IMG/VR virus record: IMGVR_UViG_3300025652_000569
Span: 1 to 23,472 of that record
Strand: one strand, 5' to 3'
Length of the DNA: 23,472 nucleotides
Origin: a virus
Part shown: positions 7,218-23,472 of the stretch, piece after piece
Layout: each line of letters opens with the position of its first letter
How positions within the stretch are numbered: the first letter of the stretch is position 1
Notes under the pieces: generated by a model
What the model was told of the DNA's origin: nothing
Databases searched by the model: none
The model's input: the letters and a program-made list of their open reading frames with translations, nothing else
Position numbers and translations under genes: made by a program

Positions 7218-7594
7218 TGGTTCTCCAAGCATTGAATTCATGGAGGAGGCGACAGTTTGAGTACGGCGATTCAGATTGCTGCCAGTTCGTTGCTCATGTG
7301 CTTTTGGAGCTAACCGGAAAAGATTATATTCACGCTTTCGGGTACAATAGCGAGAAGGGCGCTGAAGAGATTTTGGCCGAACACGGAGGATTGGAGGGGC
7401 TAGTTTCCTTTGCGCTTCAGAAGCTGCCAAGCGAAGATTTCGGCGACGGTGATCCTGTTATTGTTGATCTGCCTATTATCGGCGAAGCGATGGGCATAAA
7501 ATTCGGAACGGAAGCTGTTTGCTTGACGAAAAAGGGCATGGCTAGAGTCAACGAAAGATACATCATCAAGGGTTGGAAGATATGCCACCAGTAA
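7217..7594 (+). CDS. NlpC/P60-like tail protein (DUF6950-like)
   Basis: This 125-aa protein contains W-R-R-R-Q-F-E-Y-G-D-S-D-C-C-Q-F-V-A-H-V at residues 9-28. The Y-G-x-x-D-C motif carries the nucleophilic cysteine (Cys21 or Cys22) of NlpC/P60-type cysteine peptidases. A G-G-L-E-x-L-V segment follows near residue 58. The catalytic histidine is not obvious in this short protein, so it may be a degenerate or structural member. In lambda, gpK of this class precedes gpI and gpJ and is linked to local peptidoglycan opening during entry. The start forms a TAATG overlap; the end overlaps the J gene by 13 nt. Confidence 0.7.
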   Translation: MVLQALNSWRRRQFEYGDSDCCQFVAHVLLELTGKDYIHAFGYNSEKGAEEILAEHGGLEGLVSFALQKLPSEDFGDGDPVIVDLPIIGEAMGIKFGTEAVCLTKKGMARVNERYIIKGWKICHQ

Positions 7595-19556: not shown

Positions 19557-19944
19557 ATCACTAAGGCTCTTCCAGCTTCTGAGAAGGCTTGAGGAAGCCG
19601 ACGACGATGGATTCTGCGAGTGTGTAACCTGCGGGGAATACAGGCATTACACGACCGTTCATGGCGGTCATTTCCTGCCGAAAGGCAAATCATCCTTCTG
19701 GGCGCACTCTCCCGACAACGTTTTTCCTCAATGCCCCGCGTGTAATCTATACGGGATGAAGCACGGATCAGCAGCGCAGGTCTATACCATTTTCATGATT
19801 AGAAAATTCGGTGAAGAAAAGGTCGGTCACATGCTGGCGACTCAAGGCAACATCATCAAGATATACGCCAAGGATTACCGTGAGATGATCGCGGATTACA
19901 ACGCAAGAATCAAAGTCGAGAAAAAGCGCATTGGTGTGCTTTGA
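19534..19944 (+). CDS. ninG: NinG/Rap-like recombination protein
   Basis: This 136-aa protein starts at GTG 19534, preceded by GGAG with 7-nt spacing. Cys28, Cys30 and Cys33 (F-C-E-C-V-T-C-G), then H-G-G-H-F (His43, His46), and Cys67/Cys70 in F-P-Q-C-P-A-C-N-L-Y form the metal-binding pattern of NinG. A-K-S and R-K-F-G near the middle also fit. Lambda Rap cuts recombination intermediates with structure specificity. NinB ahead strengthens the call. The end overlaps the HNH gene by 14 nt. Confidence 0.85.
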   Translation: MPETPRAKSLRLFQLLRRLEEADDDGFCECVTCGEYRHYTTVHGGHFLPKGKSSFWAHSPDNVFPQCPACNLYGMKHGSAAQVYTIFMIRKFGEEKVGHMLATQGNIIKIYAKDYREMIADYNARIKVEKKRIGVL

Positions 19945-20338
19945 GTGCGAGTCGAAGGCGCATCACGCTCACCACGTCGTTCCGCGAGTTCTTGGCGGCA
20001 CTAAAACAATATCGCTTTGCTCCGTATGTCATGCCAAGATTCACGGTGATCACCTTCTGAGAACCTCTGAGCTGACAAAGGCGGGCATGAAGAAAGCGCG
20101 AGACGCCGGGTTTTATGTTTCCGGTAGAGCGCCATTTGGTTCTGAGGTAATCGACGGCAGGCTACAGAAAAACAAGCGTGAACAAAAGATCATTAAAGAA
20201 ATGGTTAAAATGAAAGACGCAGGGATTTATTTTGCAACCATCTCCAAAGTGATAGAAGTGAAACACGGGATTAAATTATCAATTTCATCCATCAGACGGA
20301 CAATCATAAGGGCGAGAAATGAAAATATCACTGAATGA
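19931..20338 (+). CDS. HNH endonuclease with recombinase-like helical C-terminus
   Basis: The frame starts at TTG 19931 or GTG 19934; the latter gives V-C-F-E-C. Cys3 and Cys6, H-H-A-H-H-V-V-P-R-V-L-G-G-T and S-L-C-S-V-C-H-A-K-I-H-G form an HNH fold with structural zinc. Residues about 45-135 read K-A-G-M-K-K-A-R-D-A-G-F-Y-V-S-G-R-A-P-F-G and later K-R-E-Q-K-I-I-K-E-M-V-K-M-K-D-A-G-I-Y, like the 'recombinase' domain that follows the catalytic part of large serine integrases. The pairing of HNH with such a tail is uncommon. Its target is unknown. Confidence 0.75.
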   Translation: MVCFECESKAHHAHHVVPRVLGGTKTISLCSVCHAKIHGDHLLRTSELTKAGMKKARDAGFYVSGRAPFGSEVIDGRLQKNKREQKIIKEMVKMKDAGIYFATISKVIEVKHGIKLSISSIRRTIIRARNENITE

Positions 20339-20564
20339 CGCAACACCAAGCGAGTGGGACGCCGTGAACCGGCCAGCACATTACAACGCTTCAGGTGTCG
20401 AGTGTATCGATTACATCCAGCAGCAGCTTGGAGATGATTACAAAGGGTATCTCCTTGGGAACTGTATCAAGTACATCCACAGGCACAAATACAAACATTC
20501 TCCAAAGCAAGATTTGTTAAAAGCTAAATGGTATCTGGAACGCTTGATAGCCGCGACGGACTAG
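20319..20564 (+). CDS. DUF3310 protein (T7 gp1.7-like nucleotide kinase family)
   Basis: This 81-aa protein, ATG 20319, overlaps the HNH gene by 20 nt. It has V-N-R-P-A-H-Y-N-A-S-G-V-E-C-I-D-Y-I, then G-N-C-I-K-Y-I-H-R-H-K-Y-K and D-L-L-K-A-K-W-Y-L-E-R-L-I. All three blocks are hallmark phrases of DUF3310. The T7 member gp1.7 is reported as a dGMP/dTMP-type kinase; whether this small one is active is not known. It ends the gene-dense early module before the non-coding stretch. Confidence 0.9.
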   Translation: MKISLNDATPSEWDAVNRPAHYNASGVECIDYIQQQLGDDYKGYLLGNCIKYIHRHKYKHSPKQDLLKAKWYLERLIAATD

Positions 20565-20574
20565 AGTAAAGTAA

Positions 20575-20945
20575 GGATATCGGCGGGGATGCGAACCCCT
20601 GAAGGCCGGTAGAAAGGGGAGATGGGGAAATACCGGGCCAAACCGACCCGTTAATTGTCTCACCTCCCAACTTCAAATGCAACTAACGTGAATGGTTGTC
20701 GCAAAGGACAGTTGGGTTCTCGCCGTGCCCACATTTCCCCAAAGCAGCGCGTCCGAGTCCAGCTTCTCGGGTAAGATCACGACCCATACGCAAAGGCCCA
20801 AGTGGGTTGTCTGAGTAGCGTTCAGGCAGGAAAGCGAAAGCACATGAGTACCACATCTTCGGGTGTAGCCACGCAAGACCTAACCAGATTTACGATCTGC
20901 ATGGTTGTGGCTTGCAAAGGGAAAAAGCTGGACTGCGCCCGAAAT
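20575..20945 (+). ncRNA. Candidate structured non-coding RNA (no convincing gene in 20565-20961)
   Basis: Between two firm genes lie 397 nt with many complementary segments. Helices seen by eye: 20585-20588 with 20596-20599; 20604-20611 with 20631-20639 (8 pairs, one bulge); 20666-20672 with 20710-20716; 20756-20765 with 20925-20934 (10 perfect pairs over a long range); 20779-20786 with 20803-20810; 20853-20857 with 20862-20866 capped by TTCG; 20867-20872 with 20907-20912, enclosing 20882-20889 with 20895-20906. The loop segment 20623-20631 also pairs perfectly over 9 bases with 20733-20741, giving a pseudoknot-like link. Strand is inferred from the neighbours. It matches no RNA family I recognise; it could be a free RNA or the leader of the next gene, whose ribosome site is at 20951. 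Confidence 0.5.
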
Positions 20946-20961
20946 AAATCAAGGAGCCAAA

Positions 20962-21414
20962 ATGGCAAGGCAACGTTTTGAAACGACAGAGATGCTAGAG
21001 CTAGAACACGCCGCACGACAGACCATCATTGAGAAGACAGGGAGACGAATAGACAAGCTATCTGACATGCTCTGGGGTGTCGATTGGGTAATCTACACAG
21101 ATGACAAGGTGAGCCACTTCGCCGAGTTTAAACGCCGTTACAACGACAAAGACGCCTATCCCGACATCAGACTCTGCGCGATGAAATATTCAAAGCTGCG
21201 GAAGTACGCCGAAGACTTCCAATTAAGATGCAGCTATTTTATCGTGGAATTCGACGATGCTTATGTTGCGATAGAAATCGGCCCACAAGACAACATTCCA
21301 AAAAACCTCGTTCCATTTGGACGATCCTCGAACCACCGCGATGAATTTGAAGTACAACCTTGCATCGTGATCCCGCGAAACCACTTCCGATTGATAAAAA
21401 TCAAAGATATCTGA
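20962..21414 (+). CDS. PD-(D/E)XK-like nuclease, unknown role
   Basis: This 150-aa protein starts at ATG 20962, with AAGGAG at 20951-20956; a longer GTG version at 20905 would run into the structured region. It contains G-V-D-W-V-I-Y and then S-H-F-A-E-F-K-R-R-Y-N-D: Asp41, Glu55 and Lys57 fit the D-(x)n-E-x-K core of PD-(D/E)XK nucleases. A helical E/R-rich N-terminus precedes it. Similar small proteins in phages could be Holliday-junction or nicking enzymes. The direct follow-on from the structured region makes a regulatory link conceivable. Confidence 0.6.
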   Translation: MARQRFETTEMLELEHAARQTIIEKTGRRIDKLSDMLWGVDWVIYTDDKVSHFAEFKRRYNDKDAYPDIRLCAMKYSKLRKYAEDFQLRCSYFIVEFDDAYVAIEIGPQDNIPKNLVPFGRSSNHRDEFEVQPCIVIPRNHFRLIKIKDI

Positions 21415-21681: not shown

Positions 21682-21688
21682 CATCACA

Positions 21689-21702
21689 GGGGCTTCGGCC
21701 CC
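21689..21702 (+). other. Intergenic GGGGC-UUCG-GCCCC hairpin (copy 1)
   Basis: A five-pair G/C stem closes the loop TTCG. It lies between the stop at 21681 and the next ribosome site, GGAAGGGGA at 21712-21720. No T-run follows, so it is more like an mRNA-processing or stabilising element than a terminator. The identical 14-mer recurs at 22434-22447. Confidence 0.8.
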
Positions 21703-21725
21703 AATAACAACGGAAGGGGAACAAA

Positions 21726-21923: not shown

Positions 21924-21929
21924 CCAGCC

Positions 21930-21943
21930 GGGGCTACGGCCCC
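21930..21943 (+). other. Intergenic GGGGC-UACG-GCCCC hairpin (copy 2)
   Basis: The same five-pair stem as copies 1 and 3, but with the loop TACG. Since UACG and UUCG both belong to the stable UNCG tetraloop class, the change keeps the fold, which suggests the structure rather than the exact bases is kept. It precedes GAGGAA at 21955-21960, the ribosome site of the next gene. Confidence 0.8.
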
Positions 21944-21966
21944 ACTAACGAAACGAGGAACGACTT

Positions 21967-22615: not shown

Positions 22616-23472
22616 ATGTTGCGACCTCACCAAGAAAAAGCCACAGAGATGCTGCGGCAGTCAATGAGGCAAGGAAACAAGAACGTAATTCTGGCGGCGC
22701 CGTGCTCTTTCGGTAAAACCAGAGTCGCGGTTGAGATCCTGAAGGCGGTGGCAGAGAACGGCAAATTTGGCATCTTTATCTGTGACCGTATCAAATTGGT
22801 CGATCAGGCATTAGCTGAGTTTGACCGCGCAGGCGTCAGGGTGGGGGTGTTGCAGGCCGATCACTGGCGCAGTGACCCAAACGCACCGATCCAAATAGCA
22901 TCGATTCAGACGATAGCCAGACGGCGCTACAAGCCGCTCTTTCATCTCGCGATTATTGACGAATGCCACACGCACTACAAAGCCACCACGGAGCTGATGG
23001 AATCATCAAGAAACTCTCTCTTTGTGGGACTCAGCGCCACGCCGTATTCAAAGGGATTGGGTAACTTTTACTCGGATCTTATCGTACCGATAACCACTCA
23101 GGAGCTGCTTGATCAAGGCTATTTATGCCCGGTTAAGTATTACGGCGGTATTCACGCCAACCTGAACGGGGTTAAGACTAAAAGGGTATCAACTGGCGCA
23201 GTGGATTACGATCCGAAATCATTATCAGATGCGGTCGAAAAAGATCCGAGTCTGGTCGGCGCTATTATCGAGAATTTCAAGCGATTCGGGAAAGGTCAGA
23301 CGATAGCATTCAGTCCGTCGATCAAGCACTCTCAGAAGCTCGTGGAGATGTTTAGAGAAGAAGGCTTTAGCGCAGAGCACATTGATGGTTACATGGAGCC
23401 AGACGAACGGCAGGAGCTATTCGACGGCCACGACAACGGCGACTTTCAAATTCTATCTTGCTCGCGGTTACT
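22616..23472 (+). CDS. SF2 DNA/RNA helicase, N-terminal part (runs off right edge)
   Basis: The frame starts at ATG 22616 without a clear ribosome site, so coupling with the gene before it is likely. About 285 residues are visible. L-R-P-H-Q is a Q-motif-like start; A-P-C-S-F-G-K-T at 28-35 is the Walker A box, I-I-D-E-C-H at 113-118 the DECH box and G-L-S-A-T-P at 138-143 motif III. The second RecA domain begins with Q-T-I-A-F-S-P-S and H-I-D-G-Y-M. Phage SF2 helicases of this layout act in replication or recombination (UvsW/DEAD type). The rest lies beyond the window. Confidence 0.88.
   Translation, partial: MLRPHQEKATEMLRQSMRQGNKNVILAAPCSFGKTRVAVEILKAVAENGKFGIFICDRIKLVDQALAEFDRAGVRVGVLQADHWRSDPNAPIQIASIQTIARRRYKPLFHLAIIDECHTHYKATTELMESSRNSLFVGLSATPYSKGLGNFYSDLIVPITTQELLDQGYLCPVKYYGGIHANLNGVKTKRVSTGAVDYDPKSLSDAVEKDPSLVGAIIENFKRFGKGQTIAFSPSIKHSQKLVEMFREEGFSAEHIDGYMEPDERQELFDGHDNGDFQILSCSRL

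Follow-up and report, generated by a model that had tools for sequence, protein, structure and literature searches.

What occupies the long gap between genes in front of the replication genes of this virus? The window analysed here is the whole 23,472-nt stretch of an IMG/VR virus record (IMGVR_UViG_3300025652_000569). An earlier note, made from its letters alone, had proposed an uncatalogued structured RNA of about 370 nt at 20575-20945, between a DUF3310 gene and a nuclease gene. The gap itself is free of genes as described: the last position of the DUF3310 ORF is 20564, and not until the ATG at 20962 does another convincing ORF begin. The element also proved to be real, with its boundaries refined to about 20577-20941 and a predicted promoter just upstream. 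The locus is laid out as follows:

20319-20564, + strand: DUF3310 ORF of 81 aa, the upstream neighbour (Pfam PF11753, E 4.7e-20)
20544-20572, + strand: sigma70-like promoter, TTGATA-17-TAAAGT, with 9 of 12 consensus matches
about 20577-20941, + strand: structured RNA of about 365 nt with a 3' module of type T1, recognised by covariation, a strand test, the lack of open frames and homologues
20962-21414, + strand: PDDEXK_14 nuclease ORF of 150 aa, the downstream neighbour (Pfam PF24579, E 7.3e-15)
22616-23470, + strand: SF2 (ResIII/DEAD-type) helicase ORF, cut by the contig end (cluster c0)

The proposal had leaned on self-complementarity above chance. For the single sequence this could not be sustained: shuffling gave a mean minimum free energy of -121.1 and the + strand itself -124.8 (z -0.69), with 30 of 100 shuffles folding equally well, and the - strand gave a z of -0.46. 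Because folding of the single sequence was uninformative on both strands, homologues were used, and the evidence presented below is covariation and not folding energy.

Related IMG/VR contigs were reached via the neighbouring proteins. The DNA after DUF3310 matched the RNA region in about 40 loci, in several of which the 3' half was 84-86% identical, compared to 67-69% for the DUF3310 protein. A two-block pattern search of IMG/VR returned 81 stretches, with at least 80 homologous contigs among the matches listed; the carriers are mostly uncultured phages. In all listed stretches the pattern match was 76-81 nt long, and the 5' motif GTCGGCGGG was found about 265-350 nt upstream of it, except in 11 stretches that are truncated or carry a divergent 5' domain. 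The resulting viral set comprised 58 unique full-length sequences, 37 of them below 95% identity, with 43% identity for the most distant pair.

Outside this set, pattern matches in 85,000 bacterial species were rejected as chance on account of their irregular spacing and scores of at most 8.2 bits with the covariance model R1, which gives the window 170.1 bits. No match was found in the plasmids searched. R1 also found none in 369 and 385 bacterial genomes from the classes to which two seed genomes, Halomonas and Rhizobium, belong; as these genomes include no known positive, the evidence from this search is weak. BLASTN of three forms of the RNA against cultured phages returned only short antisense-tRNA look-alikes and one 25-nt match, and none of the cultured phages examined carried a convincing RNA. 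The closest cultured relatives are the Roseobacter phages CRP-406 and CRP-821 by capsid (41-42%), and Pseudomonas phage PS-1 and Pelagibacter phage EXVC032P by helicase (37-38%). The 613 nt of noncoding DNA in the homologous helicase region of PS-1 contained no R1 match. This stretch (L201:5382-5994) and one in phage YA3 (L279:2501-3231) both lie between a cro-type gene and the homologous helicase; they are several hundred nt long and partly 84% identical to each other, and that of PS-1 has no Rfam match. Possibly they hold another structured RNA in the same place.

In the homologues, compensatory changes were abundant. The 12 strongest covarying column pairs of the whole alignment all fell within helices of the first consensus fold, and the consensus folding energy lay 6 to 15 SD below column-shuffled controls, with alifold z-scores of -13 to -15 among these values. 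A structure of 67 pairs was then specified by hand. It includes two pseudoknots and consists of 14 helices across the 3' 250 nt of the RNA only, and it was evaluated on 29 sequences outside the window's own clade, with compensatory changes taken straight from the alignment. In these sequences 98.6% of the positions concerned were paired, and 35 of the 67 pairs showed compensatory changes. The covariation score was 0.441, compared to 0.150 in shuffles (0/500); slid registers reached at most 0.061, a comparison that flatters the structure because it was built from the same sequences. As G-U cells far exceeded A-C cells (152 versus 8), the + strand is the RNA, and the GAAA, UUCG and GNRA-type loops on that strand agree with this call. 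A frame open across the region was present in none of the 58 unique homologues. On this comparative evidence, the region is a genuine structured RNA of the + strand.

The earlier note had recognised no known family, and covariance-model searches bear this out: Rfam 15 gave no above-threshold match in the window and no match at E≤10 in 13 homologues, so that by Rfam search the RNA is not GOLLD, ROOL, a group I/II intron, a riboswitch or tmRNA. One candidate, an HDV-like ribozyme (HDV-F-prausnitzii), was rejected, as its score was 14.9 bits (threshold 44, E 4.6) and its match covers the start of the nuclease gene. No account of the RNA was found in searches of an open-access literature library. 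Judged by these models, the RNA belongs to no Rfam family and was previously uncatalogued. Its parts are:

20577-20655, + strand: 5' domain, common to all 3'-module types, with P1, P2 and, in homologues, an H-type pseudoknot
20580-20583/20643-20646, + strand: P1, window core, 98.9% paired in 39 sequences
20585-20588/20596-20599, + strand: P2 hairpin, 100% paired in 39 sequences, compensatory in 12
20701-20745, + strand: central hairpin domain, with 20711-20717/20727-20732 inside 20706-20708/20736-20738 (covariation helices 1 and 2)
20753-20770, + strand: hairpin with the PK1 loop; stem 20753-20757/20766-20770, loop 20760-20765 pairing with 20925-20930
20777-20941, + strand: exchangeable 3' module, type T1, with compensatory pairs (model R1)
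20783-20785/20919-20921, 20790-20792/20913-20915, 20796-20799/20804-20807 and 20810-20814/20821-20825, + strand: T1 helices
20834-20835/20840-20841 (GAAA loop) and 20853-20857/20862-20866 (UUCG loop), + strand: T1 hairpins
20867-20872/20907-20912, 20877-20880/20903-20906 and 20885-20888/20896-20899, + strand: T1 helices
20925-20930, + strand: 3' strand of PK1, AAGCUG, near the 3' boundary of the RNA

Two long-range helices had been singled out from the window alone, and only one of them is conserved. In the 10-bp pairing 20756-20765/20925-20934, the core 20760-20765/20925-20930 (PK1) covaries, occurring as CAGCUU/AAGCUG, CGGCUU/AAGCCG, CCACUU/AAGUGG and CGACUU/AAGUCG; its columns are 100% paired, and at two of its pairs both sides are changed, in 16 and 7 sequences. 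The other, 20623-20631/20733-20741, was rejected: it is perfect in the window and in L124 and matches at 8 of 9 positions in L093, but in the 34 remaining homologues just 0-4 of the 9 positions pair. The expectation that some helices cross was correct, with compensatory changes found in crossing as well as nested helices, and the helix noticed for its TTCG cap is the UUCG hairpin listed above, whose tetraloop varies among homologues. The H-type pseudoknot of the 5' domain is 83% paired in homologues, with C-G to U-A changes in 10. The loop of the central hairpin forms a second pseudoknot in homologues, which was largely lost by deletion in the window's clade, and A2 (second pseudoknot, central hairpin domain) is a gap in the window rows of the alignment. 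In the T1 3' domain, 24 of 37 pairs are changed on both sides. Most helix pairs within T1 (56 of 66) do not fit one common tree, a pattern to be expected from recombination or recurrent change.

A separate observation concerns the first nucleotides of the 5' domain, where 20580-20605 looks like a tRNA T-arm and acceptor read in antisense; the blastn matches are tRNA-Glu genes. In L289, an antisense tRNA-like stretch matched the 5' pattern.

The most unusual property of the family is its modularity. As seen across the homologues, the 5' domain is conserved, and what follows it is one of three structured 3' modules that are unrelated to each other. Some relatives with a helicase about 93% identical to the query have the same 5' domain and another 3' part, termed T2; in the T2 members (L205, L206, L208 and L217) the 3' part is closed by AGAGGCGG/CCGCCUCU while the 5' domain is kept. 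The third type, T3, was found in L034, L230, L232, L247, L253, L254, L256 and L284, and also in L248 and L255, in which P2 is changed on both sides to GAGA/UCUC. The T3 module is itself structured (21 compensatory pairs, z -8.7), and with it the RNA reaches about 450 nt. The shared 5' domain accompanies every T2 stretch and all T3 stretches inspected, and neither T2 nor T3 modules match an Rfam family.

In a divergent branch (L094, L098, L101, L130 and L137) it is the 5' domain that is replaced. The new domain keeps the layout of P1 (GUCGG/CCGAC) and a short hairpin and has its own promoter, and PK1 is retained as CCGACU/AGUCGG. Where the contig continues in these members, about 95-120 nt separate the RNA from the start of the next ORF, which in L098 may be preceded by a separate promoter. 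Upstream of the RNA and on the opposite strand, L098 also carries (7437-7516, +) an 80-nt mini-tmRNA (Rfam tmRNA, 64.7 bits, threshold 47). Its acceptor, T-arm and encoded CCA are present, but 14 nt replace the mRNA-like part and the pseudoknots. The same kind of sequence is found upstream in L137, a close relative. Among its possible identities are a decoy, a tRNA-like RNA and a rearranged attachment site.

The RNA appears to be transcribed from its own sigma70-type promoter, a well-supported prediction that places the transcription start at about 20577-20580, at the 5' end of the RNA. The 3' end of the DUF3310 ORF overlaps this promoter. Nearly all of the 63 distinct flanks, which are not 63 independent cases as many are kin to each other, have a promoter at a fixed distance from the RNA; it is TTGATN-17-TANNNT-like and for the most part stops 4-5 nt short of the RNA start GUGUCGG. 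At least 8 of 12 consensus matches were present in 86% of the flanks, compared to 15% of shuffled flanks. The flanks comprise the DUF3310 3' end, a cro-like context with an operator-like CACCGGAAGGTG palindrome in the promoter spacer, and others. The promoter has thus been kept in unrelated surroundings.

At its other end, the RNA usually stops 12-25 nt before the next start codon, in the replication operon. It runs into the Shine-Dalgarno sequence and start codon of the next gene in 49 of 59 rows scanned, and 8 of the 10 Shine-Dalgarno misses are chance bacterial loci. In the window, the nuclease gene has the Shine-Dalgarno sequence AAGGAG at 20951-20956. No terminator was found 3' of the RNA, a run of five Ts being present in only 3 rows. 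Nothing points to control of translation, as no conserved pairing hides the Shine-Dalgarno sequence.

Two genes are constant downstream, that of the SF2 helicase (c0, ResIII-like; its cluster representative L120 matches Pfam ResIII at 3.4e-21 and Helicase_C at 8.7e-18) and that of a small primase-like protein with a CHC2 zinc ribbon (c3). The interval from RNA to helicase contains none to three small ORFs, often including a member of one of the four families named next; in relatives, the slot of the window's nuclease contains unrelated ORFs or none. In the slot directly after the RNA, four unrelated families of 150-160 aa (c11, c25, c26 and c30) replace one another; one of these is PDDEXK_14, and a PDDEXK-like motif only suggests that the others are nucleases. 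An informal look for a link between 3'-module type and nuclease family revealed none, and c26-type nucleases follow both T1 and T3 RNAs. Upstream, there are two contexts, one with NinB, NinG, an HNH-recombinase protein and DUF3310 and the other with a divergent operon and a small cro-like HTH gene; T3 occurs in both. The protein encoded at 19931-20335, common upstream in one context, carries an HNH-type zinc motif at its N terminus, and its C terminus has a stretch similar to the serine-integrase recombinase family (PF07508 in the cluster representative). Repeated GC-rich hairpins, GGGGCTTCGGCCCC and GGGGCTACGGCCCC, stand after small ORFs downstream of the RNA at 21685-21705 and 21928-21945 and have no T tracts. 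A tRNA search with ARAGORN came back empty both for the window and for 22 homologous loci.

What does the RNA do? We lean, at a little under an even chance, towards a cis-acting leader of the early replication transcript. It would form the folded first part of an early transcript that continues into the variable nuclease slot and the helicase and primase genes, and would act in cis, for example on the elongating RNA polymerase or on processing or stability of the replication-operon mRNA, with the exchangeable 3' module holding the variable part of its interaction. This leader is favoured because the RNA usually lies between a promoter and the next Shine-Dalgarno sequence with no terminator after it. 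In addition, the first downstream gene varies and helicase and primase stay, which suits an effect on the transcript better than one on a single gene. On the other hand, the detached next ORF of the divergent members suits a free-standing RNA, and module exchange together with a 3' end folded back via PK1 suggests a self-contained globular RNA. Both observations count against the leader, and along with the size, the multiple pseudoknots and the sharp 5' and 3' limits they speak for a trans-acting, ornate RNA of the GOLLD/ROOL sort, which we regard as possible but not probable. Such an RNA would have its own early promoter, be cut from the read-through transcript and form a compact, perhaps multimeric particle binding a host or phage partner set by the 3' module. 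GOLLD likewise pairs a conserved region with a less conserved one (PMC12286853). A free-standing RNA fits poorly with the missing terminator, the usual end beside the next Shine-Dalgarno sequence, the restriction to one operon and the distance from tRNA clusters.

The cis leader and this trans-acting RNA are close in likelihood, and the other readings are less likely. A replication-origin RNA, whose transcript would prime or activate origin firing beside the helicase and primase genes, seems unlikely. The helicase-primase pair is the constant neighbour in both genomic contexts, the RNA's own promoter looks repressible in one of them, and the mosaic variation within T1 is specificity-like; the promoter of an antisense counter-RNA is, however, not established. 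Such an RNA would resemble plasmid RNAII or phage origin transcripts, and its exchangeable parts would give compatibility groups. Even less can be said for a riboswitch-like leader, one that responds to a ligand and regulates how the gene after it is translated: its position between promoter and Shine-Dalgarno sequence would be right, but the gene to be regulated swaps freely among unrelated ORFs, no conserved alternative structure sequesters the start site, a terminator is lacking, and it would be unusual for three unrelated 3' modules to share one role, all of which makes it improbable. Finally, a decayed gene or DNA-level element that is foldable by chance would fit a single-sequence folding energy that is no better than that of shuffles. 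This reading conflicts with the covariation score and its controls, the G-U/A-C asymmetry and the lack of open frames, and is hardly credible, having already been refuted by the homologues.

For the favoured cis-acting leader, we consider the put RNA of phage HK022 the best comparison, though it is much smaller and unrelated. The put RNA suppresses termination in cis via the zinc-binding domain of the RNA polymerase beta' subunit. In HK022, the putL site directly follows an early phage promoter and works in cis as RNA with no dedicated protein, and the predicted order of promoter, RNA and gene found here resembles that of the put RNA downstream of the HK022 PL promoter (PMC9378689). The position predicted for our RNA, at the start of an early transcript, is shared. 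However, the put RNA has about 70 nt and two stem-loops, compared to 67 pairs in the 3' 250 nt alone of our RNA, and we saw no likeness in sequence or fold. RNAII-like plasmid or phage origin transcripts are also structured, lie beside replication genes and have variable parts, as is the case for this RNA. Group I/II introns and HEARO/omega RNAs are likewise large structured RNAs near endonuclease ORFs; in contrast to these, our RNA matches no such Rfam model at E≤10, the genes on either side of it are complete, with no splicing to join them, and no IscB, IsrB or TnpB ORF was noted beside it.

Phages are known to encode few large structured RNAs, and even GOLLD and ROOL, the best-known examples, are still without a function. 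These form homo-oligomeric RNA particles. Like them, the present RNA is a large, pseudoknotted, noncoding phage RNA. It differs in its size (365-450 nt, compared to about 660 for ROOL env-120 and more than 800 for many GOLLD RNAs), in its lack of a match to the GOLLD/ROOL Rfam models, in its conserved part being the 5' part and in its place before replication genes with no tRNA islands near, whereas GOLLD and ROOL are found near tRNA islands in phages and prophages.

The family therefore adds an uncatalogued RNA class, with dozens of distinct sequences and strong covariation that includes two pseudoknots. Given the predicted 5' promoter and the fixed place before replication genes, its function lends itself to direct tests with reporters and deletions. 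As a kind, such large and structured RNAs are already known from phages; the unusual part is that whole structured 3' modules are exchanged on a constant 5' domain, which is uncommon for a noncoding RNA. The constant promoter-linked 5' domain with swapped, unrelated 3' modules might be a device that sets specificity and can be exchanged, as in conflicts among phages or with the RNA polymerase or defences of the host, an idea that we put forward as speculative and less likely than not. The exchange of 3' modules, and in the divergent branch of the 5' domain, is comparable to the domain exchange of specificity proteins. If this is true, the phages carrying this RNA would practise modular swapping at the level of RNA, akin to that of specificity proteins.
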